A stretch of 33,786 bases of DNA from a virus: positions 1 to 33,786 of IMG/VR virus record IMGVR_UViG_3300036817_000096; one strand, 5' to 3'. Made by a program: the position numbers and the translations under genes. Of this stretch, positions 9,718 through 18,368 are shown piece by piece. How positions within the stretch are numbered: position 1 is the first letter of the stretch; each line of letters begins with the position of its first letter. The notes beneath the pieces are model-generated. The model was not told the DNA's origin. It was given only the letters and a program-made list of their open reading frames with translations, and did no database searches.

Positions 9718-9757
9718 TAGTCAAATTCCTGCCCCATTTCGGGCAAGGAGAGTGCAA

Positions 9758-10348
9758 ATGAACCGTTTCCTTTTGGCCGCAGCCCTCTTGCTAGCCGCCG
9801 CCGCCCCGAGCGCGGCGGCGATTGTGACCGAGACAGACTTCACCGTGAACGGCAACGGCGTGACCGCCAACCCGGACAGCGACCTTGCGACCGCAACCTC
9901 GCTCGGCGTCACGACTTGGACGGCAAACGAAATCGTTGACGCCCTTGGCGGCTTGCACAACGGCGACGCGATCACGATGACCAACCCAATCTCGACCGCG
10001 ATTGGCGCGTTCATCACCATTTCGTGGGATGGCGGCGCGTTCACCGACACGACCAAGACCAGCTCCGTCCGGTTCGTCGGCGACGAGCTTGACCTTGCGG
10101 GCAGCGGCGTCCTGCACGGGACTGGCATTCCGACGAACACCCTTGGCGTGCTCGATCTGTCGTTTACGCAGGCCGGCGGCTCGGGCGATCTGATCAGCGG
10201 TTCGGGCTCGTTCACCGCGACGAGCGGCGGCGTCAGTTCGTCGGTTCCCGAGCCTTCGACGTGGGCGATGATGATTATCGGCTTCGGATTGATGGGAGGC
10301 TTTGCGTGGCGGAAGTCGGCGGCCCCCCGTTTGGCGGGGTTGGTCTAA
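9758..10348 (+). CDS. Secreted PEPxxWA-CTERM protein (196 aa)
   Basis: Exported protein with a cleavable signal peptide (MNRFLLAAALLLAAAAPSAAA spans residues 1-21, cut likely after AAA). A Thr/Ser/Gly-rich beta-type body follows, and near the end a sorting signal: VPEPSTWAMM (about residue 162 on), a hydrophobic stretch and a basic cluster (WRKS). In bacteria this tail is recognised by exosortase and the protein is surface-anchored. In a phage genome it would depend on host machinery. The ATG at 9758 has AAGGAGA upstream. Ten further residues after the basic cluster are slightly longer than usual. Confidence 0.85.
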   Translation: MNRFLLAAALLLAAAAPSAAAIVTETDFTVNGNGVTANPDSDLATATSLGVTTWTANEIVDALGGLHNGDAITMTNPISTAIGAFITISWDGGAFTDTTKTSSVRFVGDELDLAGSGVLHGTGIPTNTLGVLDLSFTQAGGSGDLISGSGSFTATSGGVSSSVPEPSTWAMMIIGFGLMGGFAWRKSAAPRLAGLV

Positions 10349-15107: not shown

Positions 15108-15265
15108 CATACGTTGTAGTTTACAGGCCGTTTTGCGTGCTTGGTTATTTCAAGTCGAGGAAGGCCGCTCGAAAGTTCGCCGATGCCCATTCAAAGCGAC
15201 AATCCTCCCGAGCTGATGACGCTCGATCAGTTCAAGGGCCTCAACCAGCAATCGAAACAGGGTAG
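15104..15265 (+). CDS. Small protein (53 aa)
   Basis: Begins MTYVVVYRPFCVLGYFKSRK with a compact alpha/beta-looking core followed by KAARKFADAHSKR. The ATG overlaps the preceding stop. Its last 80 nt run in another frame over the start of the hub gene, so the C-terminus may be non-functional. Unrecognised. Confidence 0.5.
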   Translation: MTYVVVYRPFCVLGYFKSRKAARKFADAHSKRQSSRADDARSVQGPQPAIETG

Positions 15266-16820
15266 CATCGACGACCAAGAGGAATGGTGGAATGAGAACC
15301 TTTTCGCCATTGGTCCGGGGAACCTCCGCTCCTGTTGGGGGCGCGGACCCGTCATCTACACCGCCCCGGCGGGGACCGTCATCTGGCGGATTTTTTTCGG
15401 CACTTACGGCAATCAGACCCCGCAATTTTCTACGCCACCTCCGGGCGCTATGGGCTGGATTTTTCTCTCGGATGGGACGATCGAGGAAGTCGATTTAAAC
15501 ACCCTACAGGTGACGGGCCTTCGCGCGGCCGGGCCAAGCTGGGGGCCGACTGGCACGCCGGCGGGGCCGTATTTGTGGGCGACCGCCAAAGTCTGGCGTC
15601 CGCAATTCGCCGGTTCGTCGCTTGGCCAGCAAGGCGGCGTGCTGTTCGGCAGCCCGGCGGGCTTGTACGCATGGGATGGCGTGACGCTCTCGAAACCCGG
15701 CGATCCGGCGCCCGATTGGCTGACCGATTTGCAAGAGACGGACCCCGGCGGGACGCCGCCGAACATGCCGATCGGGCTCCCCGGCATTTACGACATGGAG
15801 GTTTATCAGTCGCGGCTGTGGGTTGCGGGCAAGGACGTGATCAGCTTCTCGGCGCCGTCGAACGGGGCCGACTTCTCGACCACCAATGGCGGCGGCTCGT
15901 TCGGCTATTTCGGCGACAAGCTGGCGTACAGCTACAACGCCTTGCGCGCGTCGTCGGGCTATCTGTTCGTGTTCGGCGACAGCTCGACCGACTTGATCAG
16001 CAACGTCACGCTCTCCGGGTCTGGCACGCCCGAGAGCCCGTACACGACCAATTTCAACTATGAAAATATCGATCCCCAAGTGGGGCAGCGTTTCCCGCGC
16101 CCGGTCGGCCAGCTCGGGCGGCAGATGGTGCTGTTCAACGGGGCCGGGTTTTTCCTCATGCAGGGCGGCGACGCGCAGCCGATCGGCGAGAAGGTGACGA
16201 ACCTTTGGTTGACGCTCGACATCTCGTACTATCTGCCGACGTTCGCCACGGCGACGATGTTCGGCTTCCGCGTGCTCCTGTGCAACGGTCGCTTCACCGA
16301 CCCGTTCGGTGTCACGCGAAACCTGTTACTCATGTATCATCCGAGCAAGGGCGCGGGATTTTGGAGCGTCGCCAGCCAAGGGATCGAGCTGACGAACATT
16401 GGCCATTATGAGCAAGACAGCCGGATCACGCCTTACGGGACGGACGGGACGAACCTCTATGAGCTGTTCGCGCAGCCCGACCCGACGTTGAACAAACGCT
16501 ATGTGACCAAGCGATTGCGCGGCGAGGGGATTTCGCAGCTTCAGGTGAAGAATTTCAAACGGATTTTCGCCGAGGTTGACGACAACGACGGGCGCGGCGT
16601 CTCGATCCTTGGCGAGCTTCAGACTGGCGACGGCGGCATTCCGGGCGGGATGCAGAGCTTGGATTTCGAGCTGACCGCTGGCGTGGATCACAAGCTCATT
16701 CCACAGCCGGTCGATGGACACGGGATTTGGGGGGCCATTGACTTACAGTCCAAATCGCCGGATTTTACATTGGAGCGCCTGCACGTCGCGGCTGAAGAGC
16801 GGACGTTGTTTGGGGCTTAA
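15183..16820 (+). CDS. Hub/stabilisation-like tail protein (545 aa)
   Basis: Beta-rich protein in which repeated segments (WIFLSDGTIEEVDLNTLQV, YLFVFGDSSTDLISN, QMVLFNGAGFFLMQGGDAQP) suggest a propeller or nozzle fold. The layout is like DNA-stabilisation and hub proteins of P22-type short tails. It follows the adaptor gene, as expected. Start 15183 is chosen; an ATG at 15216 is possible. Identification is by pattern, not search. Confidence 0.6.
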   Translation: MPIQSDNPPELMTLDQFKGLNQQSKQGSIDDQEEWWNENLFAIGPGNLRSCWGRGPVIYTAPAGTVIWRIFFGTYGNQTPQFSTPPPGAMGWIFLSDGTIEEVDLNTLQVTGLRAAGPSWGPTGTPAGPYLWATAKVWRPQFAGSSLGQQGGVLFGSPAGLYAWDGVTLSKPGDPAPDWLTDLQETDPGGTPPNMPIGLPGIYDMEVYQSRLWVAGKDVISFSAPSNGADFSTTNGGGSFGYFGDKLAYSYNALRASSGYLFVFGDSSTDLISNVTLSGSGTPESPYTTNFNYENIDPQVGQRFPRPVGQLGRQMVLFNGAGFFLMQGGDAQPIGEKVTNLWLTLDISYYLPTFATATMFGFRVLLCNGRFTDPFGVTRNLLLMYHPSKGAGFWSVASQGIELTNIGHYEQDSRITPYGTDGTNLYELFAQPDPTLNKRYVTKRLRGEGISQLQVKNFKRIFAEVDDNDGRGVSILGELQTGDGGIPGGMQSLDFELTAGVDHKLIPQPVDGHGIWGAIDLQSKSPDFTLERLHVAAEERTLFGA

Positions 16821-16835
16821 CCGAAGAGGCTGACC

Positions 16836-16874
16836 ATGCGAAGGGCTCGCCGAGGGCGACGCCACATTCGATAG
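16836..16874 (+). CDS. Arg-rich micropeptide 1 (12 aa)
   Basis: MRRARRGRRHIR, eight basic residues plus one His of twelve. GAAGAGG lies 6 nt before the ATG, and the stop TAG is followed by the GGAGA site of the next gene. Too short for statistics alone; its place as first member of a run of basic micro-genes is the support. Confidence 0.4.
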   Translation: MRRARRGRRHIR

Positions 16875-16883
16875 GAGAACATC

Positions 16884-16958
16884 ATGGGACCGACCCGTAC
16901 TTGGCTTGATTTCACTGAAGATCGGCGTAGGCGCAGCGGGCGCCGGCGTCGCCGGTAA
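16884..16958 (+). CDS. Arg-rich micropeptide 2 (24 aa)
   Basis: Starts MGPTRTWLDFTEDRRRRS and ends in a run of five arginines after GRRRRR begins. GGAGA lies 5 nt before the ATG. Nine of the last eleven residues are basic. Likely a DNA-binding or condensing peptide; see the cluster finding. Confidence 0.55.
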   Translation: MGPTRTWLDFTEDRRRRSGRRRRR

Positions 16959-16969
16959 GGGAGGGTCCG

Positions 16970-17044
16970 ATGGCTTGGCGTCGATCCCGCCCCTTGCGGA
17001 TGACCCGTCGAGCCCGCCGCATCCGAGCCCGCAAGCGTCGCTGA
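16970..17044 (+). CDS. Arg-rich micropeptide 3 (24 aa)
   Basis: Composition MAWRRSRPLRMTRRARRI and then RARKRR; 12 of 24 residues are Arg or Lys. GGGAGG precedes the ATG by about 5 nt. Stop TGA ends just before the next ATG. Protamine-like; no known family recognised. Confidence 0.55.
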   Translation: MAWRRSRPLRMTRRARRIRARKRR

Positions 17045-17045
17045 C

Positions 17046-17165
17046 ATGAAACGCTTGGGCCTCCGCAACACCCAAAATTTGCAGAGGCAGCTTAAGCAGA
17101 AGAGCTGGCGCCTGCCGAATTTCAGGCCCCGGCTTTTCTCCTATCGCAAGGGCAGGAGGATGTGA
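17046..17165 (+). CDS. Basic micropeptide 4 (39 aa)
   Basis: Starts MKRLGLRNTQNLQRQLKQKS, less extreme than its neighbours but still strongly basic with no acidic residue. One base separates its ATG from the previous stop; its own stop overlaps the next ATG (TGATG). Likely a virion DNA-associated peptide. Confidence 0.55.
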   Translation: MKRLGLRNTQNLQRQLKQKSWRLPNFRPRLFSYRKGRRM

Positions 17166-17311
17166 TGGCTCGCGGCGTAGACCTTGGGCCGCGCTCTCGC
17201 GTGGACCCTGCTGGAAAACTTGGAACCGTTCGACCGACGACGCGCATCAAACGCGGGCGAGGGCATCGCCAAGGCGTAGGGCGCGGCAAGCGGTCGCGGC
17301 GGAGGGTATAA
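17165..17311 (+). CDS. Basic micropeptide 5 (48 aa)
   Basis: Gly/Arg/Lys-rich tail (IKRGRGHRQGVGRGKRSRRR) after a milder N-terminus. GGAGG is placed about 5 nt before the ATG. It ends TAATG with the next gene. Protamine- or histone-tail-like composition. Confidence 0.6.
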   Translation: MARGVDLGPRSRVDPAGKLGTVRPTTRIKRGRGHRQGVGRGKRSRRRV

Positions 17312-17469
17312 TGGCTCGTCGCTTCAAGGCTCCCGGTCGCGGCCCGACTGTTCGGATGCCTTGGAGTGACGGCGCTTGGCCGTCGGATTGGTCGGGCGCT
17401 CGCAAGGGCCGGCGGAAACAGAAGCGGGGGACGCCGCGTGCGGGCGGCAGGACGGGGCCGAAGCGATGA
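17311..17469 (+). CDS. Basic micropeptide 6 (52 aa)
   Basis: Starts MARRFKAPGRGPTVRMPW; an aromatic middle (GAWPSDWSGARKGR) precedes a basic tail (KQKRGTPRAGGRTGPKR). GGAGG lies about 8 nt before the ATG. It ends ATGA with the resolvase gene, tying the cluster to DNA metabolism or packaging. Confidence 0.6.
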   Translation: MARRFKAPGRGPTVRMPWSDGAWPSDWSGARKGRRKQKRGTPRAGGRTGPKR

Positions 17470-18008
17470 CGACCTATGTCTTGGGGATTGACATCGGCGT
17501 GACCGGCGGCATCGCGCTTTTGAATGAAGCCGGGGCGTTAATTGATGTATTTGTCATGCCTTGCCTGCATGACGGGCCGAAGAACCGGCGGACGATCAAT
17601 GCGCCCCTCCTTGCTGAAGTCGCGTACAAGTCGCACGCACGCACGGCGTTTATCGAGCGCGTCGGCCCGCGCCCTAAAGAGGGAAGTGTTGGGGCTTTCG
17701 CCTTTGGCGATAGCAAGGGCGTTATTCGAGGCGTACTCGCAGCCGCCGCGATCCCCACTGTTTGGATCAGTTCGCCTCAGTGGAAGCGCGTCATCGGGAT
17801 CGCGCCGGGCTCGGCAGGCGCAAAGGACGCGGCGCGTGCGGAGGCGATACGTCGCTGGCCTTCTCAAGCTGGGCGCTTCGCTCTCAAGAACACGGACGGG
17901 CTCGCCGAAAGCGCCCTCATCGGACTTGCGGGCCTCTTGGCATTCGATTTGAAGGTGGTTTCCAATGGCCCGAGGGACAACGGCGCAGAAACGAGCGCGT
18001 CGGCGTAA
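17466..18008 (+). CDS. RuvC-like Holliday-junction resolvase (180 aa)
   Basis: RNase H-fold resolvase that would cut branched DNA before packaging. GIDIGVTGG (D9) is the first strand; E64 is in AFIERV; KNTDGLAESALIG gives D144 and E148 as the late acidic pair. 180 aa fits phage RuvC proteins. The start at 17466 overlaps the preceding stop; an upstream in-frame start is rejected. A basic micro-gene is nested over its 3' end. Confidence 0.8.
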   Translation: MTTYVLGIDIGVTGGIALLNEAGALIDVFVMPCLHDGPKNRRTINAPLLAEVAYKSHARTAFIERVGPRPKEGSVGAFAFGDSKGVIRGVLAAAAIPTVWISSPQWKRVIGIAPGSAGAKDAARAEAIRRWPSQAGRFALKNTDGLAESALIGLAGLLAFDLKVVSNGPRDNGAETSASA

Positions 18009-18051
18009 CCTCCGCAAGGGGCGAGCCAAGCGGCGCGGCAAAAAGAGGTAG
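17965..18051 (+). CDS. Arg/Lys-rich micropeptide 7 (28 aa)
   Basis: 15 of 28 residues are Arg or Lys (AQKRARRRNLRKGRAKRRG). It starts inside the resolvase gene in another frame, 44 nt before that stop. GAAGG is about 12 nt upstream, a weak site. The most protamine-like of the set. Confidence 0.5.
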   Translation: MARGTTAQKRARRRNLRKGRAKRRGKKR

Positions 18052-18053
18052 TC

Positions 18054-18368
18054 ATGGCAGGACAACGGGAATGGCCGAGAGGACGGACCAATGGGACGGA
18101 GCGGCGCGGCCCGACCGGATTTTACGCCGCGCCGGATGGGGTGATGAGGTCCGATCGCTCACTCGCCGGGCCTTTGCGAACGGGGACTTCGGCGGACGTC
18201 GGACCTCGCGCAAACGGCCCCGTGTCGGGCGGCGATAGATACGTTTCGGACTTCGGCATGGACAGAATTTCCCCAAGGGATTTCGACCCGGCCGGGACGC
18301 CGCGCAACCGTTTTGGCGACATCCCTTCGGATGCGATCACCGAACAGCTCAACGGCCGCCGAAAGTGA
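18054..18368 (+). CDS. Basic, Gly/Arg-rich protein (104 aa)
   Basis: Arg/Gly/Pro/Asp-rich without a hydrophobic core (EWPRGRTNGTERRGPTGFY, then NGRRK at the end). It extends the basic cluster in a longer form. AGAGGTAG lies before the ATG. Its stop overlaps the next GTG. Unrecognised; likely virion-associated. Confidence 0.55.
   Translation: MAGQREWPRGRTNGTERRGPTGFYAAPDGVMRSDRSLAGPLRTGTSADVGPRANGPVSGGDRYVSDFGMDRISPRDFDPAGTPRNRFGDIPSDAITEQLNGRRK

Follow-up and report, generated by a model that had tools for sequence, protein, structure and literature searches.

The window, that is, the whole stretch of DNA that was analyzed, is an entire virus record of 33,786 bases with its late block on the plus strand. 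Seven open reading frames of 12, 24, 24, 39, 48, 52 and 28 aa, named A to G, were found on this strand at the positions and lengths given in an earlier note on this DNA. Micro-gene A (16836–16874; 12 aa, MRRARRGRRHIR) is preceded by the Shine-Dalgarno (SD)-like GAGG. Micro-gene B (16884–16958; 24 aa; SD AGGAG) encodes an acidic/aromatic head, TWLDFTEDRR, with an Arg tail, and C (16970–17044; 24 aa; SD GGAGG) contains the core TRRARRIRAR. Micro-gene D (17046–17165; 39 aa), with the core WRLPxWxPRLxSYRKGRR, shows no visible SD. E (17165–17311; 48 aa; SD GGAGG) carries the core LGPRSRVDPAGK and an Arg-rich tail, F (17311–17469; 52 aa; SD GGAGG) the cores PWSDGAWPSDW and TPRxGGRTGP, and G (17965–18051; 28 aa), with the core KRARRRNLRKGR, overlaps the last 44 bases of a resolvase gene.

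The junctions described previously as TGATG, TAATG and one-base gaps were seen at D–E and E–F (overlaps of one base each) and at C–D, respectively. In addition, F and the resolvase gene overlap by ATGA, and the A–B and B–C pairs are separated by gaps of 9 and 11 bases. The earlier statement that most of the genes have their own ribosome site is correct for B, C, E and F and weak for A and G, but fails for D, which is probably translated by coupling since no site is visible.

The cluster sits inside the structural-gene block, as the proposed late-gene position required. Its upstream neighbor (15141–16820, plus strand; 559 aa) is tail nozzle-like by gene order only; it is always found upstream of the cluster and had no match in Pfam or PHROG. 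The 180-aa product of the gene at 17466–18008 (plus strand) is a RuvC-like protein and a predicted cutter of Holliday junctions: residues 2–158 matched the Holliday junction resolvase family PHROG 1770 (E = 1.4e-22), it shares 33% identity with Caulobacter phage proteins annotated as resolvases, and a GIDIG motif was recognized by eye. Downstream lies p104 (18054–18368, plus strand), a conserved gene without any family match that comes next after the cluster in almost every relative whose sequence extends far enough; its product shows the conserved pattern GPLRxGT...GPxG...SDxGMDRISPRGFDPxG. The genome also encodes a large terminase, a portal, a major head protein of the tailed-phage type and, further downstream, two large proteins (742 and 685 aa) placed where ejection proteins would be expected. 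Separately, the product of a gene located between portal and capsid (9755–10348, plus strand) starts like a signal peptide and carries a PEPxxWA-CTERM sorting domain (NF035944; 41.4 bits against a cut-off of 35). A bacterial surface-sorting signal is unusual on a protein from a phage late region, and may hint at a host with that sorting system.

The seven peptides sum to 227 residues, with 31.7% Arg and 7.9% Lys. Arg and Lys together make up 31–58% of the individual peptides of 12–52 aa, which are thus both very short and strongly basic. The Arg/Lys ratio reaches 4.0 in A–G, against 1.42 for ten larger ORFs of this phage with a broadly similar choice of Arg codons; therefore, the high Arg content belongs to the peptides themselves and is not explained by GC content alone. 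Serine is scarce in the translations, and hydrophobic residues are nearly absent from A, C and G. The term protamine-like used in the earlier note is appropriate for this composition, but the peptides are not mere polycations, given that several families have conserved non-basic motifs (TWLDFTEDRR, GPRSRVDPAGK, PWSDxAWPSDW and WRLPxWxPRLxSYRKGRR). The conserved aromatic motifs are N-terminal or internal, and the C-termini are Arg-rich.

No match was found for B, C, D, E, F, G and the extra family X (see below) in PHROGs up to E = 10, or for C–G in Pfam up to E = 1. A tblastn search with E against named phages, also up to E = 10, detected nothing, the test being limited by the low-complexity filter and the short query. 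These genes are absent from family libraries and gene calls, as anticipated for ORFs that ordinary annotation misses. AlphaFold predicted no fold for E and F (pLDDT 60; pTM 0.14 and 0.20), a low confidence of the kind expected for disordered basic peptides. A literature search for protamine-like, Arg-rich, tandem or virion-associated basic micro-peptides of phages found no such system, which is weak evidence of novelty with subscription journals thinly covered. In a 2024 review of phage small proteins (PMC11323111), the words "arginine," "basic" and "packaging" appear nowhere in the text.

Viral contigs were searched for relatives with five queries, namely peptides D, E and F, the resolvase and the tail gene, and the same picture was obtained each time. 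The ordered micro-gene set recurs in 68 viral contigs beyond the window (loci of peptide E), and direct searches located D at 33 and F at 52 viral loci. Families B–F are common to many of the contigs, and extra members are gained or lost: X (VPASRKAARARRRKRR), the Trp/Arg family Y, and some Gly/Arg/Phe-rich ones. Each locus holds two to nine micro-genes (median five); these counts are approximate, as the families of more distant loci were assigned by motifs and a heuristic choice of start. The family means of net charge per peptide range from +6.7 to +15.2, with an Arg share of 0.76–0.99. G was found past the resolvase in many relatives of the RuvC type and in several that carry a VRR-NUC enzyme, for example MATKSQRAAARRNLRKARGSRRRRRR after the VRR-NUC gene of locus L020. 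The cluster is nearly universal in the group. When loci were anchored on the capsid gene, a motif search recognized micro-genes in 21 of 23; one of the two exceptions (L097) has its cluster further downstream on the same contig (L212), and the other (L231) has a 13-aa Arg peptide. A 65-aa Gly/Arg-rich ORF (MARGGGGFGHGVRVG...RRGRRRR) was also noticed in the relative L233; it lies in the head module, some 1.0 kb ahead of the capsid gene and outside the main cluster. Searches at the DNA level yielded no relative among named phages, no cultured relative was found, and GTDB genomes searched with peptide E and the terminase returned neither a relative nor a host. The contig sets and GenBank source notes give impressions of soil and aquatic habitats.

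These micro-genes are real, co-conserved protein-coding genes in a fixed late-gene synteny beside a resolvase. The pN/pS values were 0.24 for B (15 sequences), 0.24 for C (34), 0.29 for D (29), 0.28 for E (61), 0.36 for F (47) and 0.19 for X, with pN lower than pS in all compared pairs of these families; the pairs had been pre-selected at pN < 0.30, which depresses the ratio. Counts made without the pN limit agree, with variation of 0.53–0.64 at third, 0.12–0.27 at second and 0.22–0.33 at first codon positions, so the low ratios do not come merely from the selection of pairs. Micro-gene A is kept in the nearest relatives and has variant forms in others; it differs by 0.56 at position 3 versus 0.38 and 0.21 at positions 1 and 2 (9 sequences), and is the weakest member owing to its shortness. 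An SD-like site precedes most micro-gene starts in the relatives, and the commonest junction there is the one-base stop/start overlap (98 counted), a design that fits coordinated synthesis. The earlier note had named unconserved frames in related phages as the outcome that would speak against it; instead, both the ordered set and its Arg content proved to be conserved.

It could be argued that the ORFs are not proteins at all, but regulatory minigenes or accidents of GC-rich DNA, in which CGN codons abound; some of the ORFs are also very short. This is hardly credible. In 3,000 dinucleotide shuffles of the interval the longest basic chain was of 3 ORFs versus the 6 observed (199 aa), and chains did not exceed 2 in the control phages (BcepC6B and BPP-1, high-GC podoviruses read on either strand, phiKMV and a Hydrogenobaculum phage) or on the opposite strands of the relatives. 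An Rfam scan of the window gave no match either. Together with the pN/pS values of 0.19–0.36 and the third-position variation, these results already refute the non-protein explanation for B–F and X, while the case for A and G is based on fewer sequences; since the genes are conserved in relatives, a chance origin is untenable. The possibility that the run is a single larger basic protein, frameshifted or broken, was also considered and rejected, as the junctions, the ribosome sites and the selection on each frame are conserved across relatives, none of which has an intact single ORF in place of the run. The earlier suggestion that the set replaces one larger internal protein found no support: the downstream proteins of 742 and 685 aa remain, and the slot in the relatives holds no single larger basic protein.

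The gene order at the 69 loci, where sequence suffices, is capsid, adaptor, nozzle-like gene, micro-genes, nuclease, p104, p112 and p154, with one additional ORF separating the micro-genes from the nuclease in some loci. The nuclease slot is filled in all 69, by a RuvC-like enzyme in 22, a VRR-NUC enzyme in 38 and an Hjc/PD-DExK enzyme in 9. The VRR-NUC call was supported by PF08774 above the cut-off in the member tested, and the PD-DExK/Hjc-type call by PF24608, PF01870 and PHROG 244 in the members tested. The three enzymes are unrelated and replace one another among related phages, and all kinds cut junctions or branched DNA. That the enzyme is swapped yet the slot is always filled suggests, as a positional argument, that junction resolution is needed at this point of the program.

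Alignment of the capsid protein extended the comparison, with more than 500 relatives found and 80 kept. The run, or parts of it, is still present in loci with 70–77% capsid identity. The loci with capsids 35–39% identical have a lower GC content, and in the parts of them that were available no run follows the tail gene. Instead, one or two Lys/Arg peptides, mostly of 13–15 aa and led by a ribosome site (for example, MYKKMKRGRKTRR, MARKARKGRKGRK and MMQRKMLRYARPSRR), were found in 35 of 37 such distant loci, several of which are almost the same as one another. These peptides are located about 1.35–1.64 kb before the capsid gene, between the portal and scaffold-like genes, and their third codon positions are more than twice as variable as the others. 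The remaining two relatives (L270 and L276) lack peptides at the usual place, and no additional basic protein was evident among the ORFs that separate their portal and capsid genes; given these two, the trait may not be strictly required in distant relatives. Two complete genomes of uncultured Manatee Spring phages, MW202753 and MW202825, are distant kin by terminase and capsid (34–35%), and their late block likewise encodes Lys/Arg peptides of 13 aa preceded by a ribosome site. They differ from the window in having only one or two peptides, richer in Lys and in the portal/scaffold-like position, and no run after the tail gene. Their peptides are unannotated in GenBank, where opposite-strand ORFs are listed across the site. 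The trait is common to the distant phages and to that of the window, the peptides being too short to judge common ancestry, and their place inside the head module of the distant relatives ties it to head assembly or packaging.

A conserved stretch of about 80 bases (AAGGGTGTGGCTGC...TTCCC...GTGGCCGC) was also observed between the two 13-aa micro-genes of the distant phages, in L108 (~1673–1755), L109 (~1475–1558) and the equivalents in L251–L273. It is predicted to form a hairpin, with two-sided changes in 3 of 11 pairs, and had no Rfam match. It is possibly a structured RNA or a regulatory element.

Regarding function, we lean, with roughly even confidence, toward a late, translationally coupled set of disordered cationic peptides that would bind the DNA and condense it as the head is filled, and that are probably packaged. 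This is the best reading because the set is consistently cationic, Arg-biased and coupled, and lies in the structural block beside a nuclease or the portal and scaffold-like genes. The run would be a translationally coupled segment of the late operon, from whose transcript distinct, intrinsically disordered cationic peptides would be made together. These would bind replicated phage DNA, neutralizing and condensing it, and their short conserved aromatic or acidic motifs might contact the inner capsid or the portal. The adjoining resolvase would meanwhile clear branched junctions, and in this way the peptides would help the terminase to fill the head. We infer DNA binding, a role in packaging and presence in the virion, where some or all of the peptides would most probably stay with the genome. 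The combined net charge of A–G is +83. If every subunit of a T=7 capsid (415, an assumed number) came with a single copy of each peptide, about half of the phosphate charge of the 33.8-kb genome would be offset, a plausible scale as an order-of-magnitude argument. Charge neutralization alone fails to explain five to nine different peptides with specific motifs, and the conserved aromatic or acidic motifs of B, D, E and F suggest that each of these peptides also has a specific partner. Against condensation, terminase-driven dsDNA phages generally manage without protamine-like proteins, and disordered peptides rich in Arg bind to RNA no less readily than to DNA.

The strongest rivals are DNA or RNA chaperones confined to the cell. 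The peptides might be late intracellular DNA chaperones that remain outside the virion, aiding the resolvase, a recombinase or the terminase, or compacting phage or host DNA. A junction resolvase, of three unrelated kinds, is invariably adjacent, and G can follow the resolvase of whichever type, but the peptides of the distant relatives adjoin head genes instead, and in other settings resolvases of the same families function with no such peptides at hand; this role is rather unlikely. Small rRNA binders or translation modulators that favor late phage synthesis seem improbable: a composition and length like those of the smallest ribosomal proteins would suit them, but neither the absence of Pfam or PHROG matches, nor the late structural location, nor the several distinct families per run does. 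Less probable still are membrane-active or toxic peptides that serve in lysis or are aimed at the host or at competitors. Membranes can be disturbed by cationic peptides that have Trp motifs, whereas A, C and G have almost no hydrophobic residues, and a coupled set inside a structural block is unlike a lysis cassette.

Whatever their role, genes that normal gene calling passes over as too short are kept throughout this lineage (68 contigs besides the window, together with many that are more distant), and genes of 12–15 aa can be real and conserved. If the peptides are packaged, they would be a clear exception to the usual view that only polyamines and ions accompany the DNA in tailed-phage packing, and this would bear on the pressure in the head, on ejection and on how stable the virion is. 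We tentatively extend this to an uncultured, widespread dsDNA lineage that may package its genome with a "protamine kit" of cationic micropeptides, encoded by one or two genes in some branches and by five to nine in the branch of the window; if true, this would be a DNA-condensing strategy undescribed in terminase-driven phages.

Among known systems, the internal head proteins of tailed phages (T4 IP and others) are basic, made with the head genes and packaged with the DNA, but proteins of the T4 IP type are much larger and scaffold-associated, and none is a run of 12–52-aa peptides. The J/VP8 proteins of the Microviridae (phiX174, G4, SpV4) resemble the peptides of the window in being very short, rich in Arg and Lys, and phage-encoded. 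VP8, an Arg-Lys-rich analogue of J that is important in DNA packaging, is bound on the inner side of the capsid, part of it ordered and part disordered (PMC11281519). In contrast, J/VP8 is one gene in an ssDNA phage, whereas the window has seven such genes in a phage that encodes a terminase; and J/VP8 has a conserved C-terminal anchor in a hydrophobic capsid pocket, whereas the motifs of the window peptides are N-terminal or internal and their Arg is mostly C-terminal. Baculovirus P6.9 and other viral protamine-like proteins are small, Arg-rich and condense viral dsDNA for encapsidation (PMC6163548). The window peptides share their Arg-dominated positive charge (Arg/Lys ratio of 4.0), but P6.9 is Arg/Ser-rich, regulated by phosphorylation and found in eukaryotic viruses, whereas the window peptides are Ser-poor and form a multi-gene run. 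The likeness proposed here is thus functional, without any claim of homology or sequence relation: the peptides may act on the phage genome in a manner analogous to that of Microviridae J/VP8 or the viral protamines.
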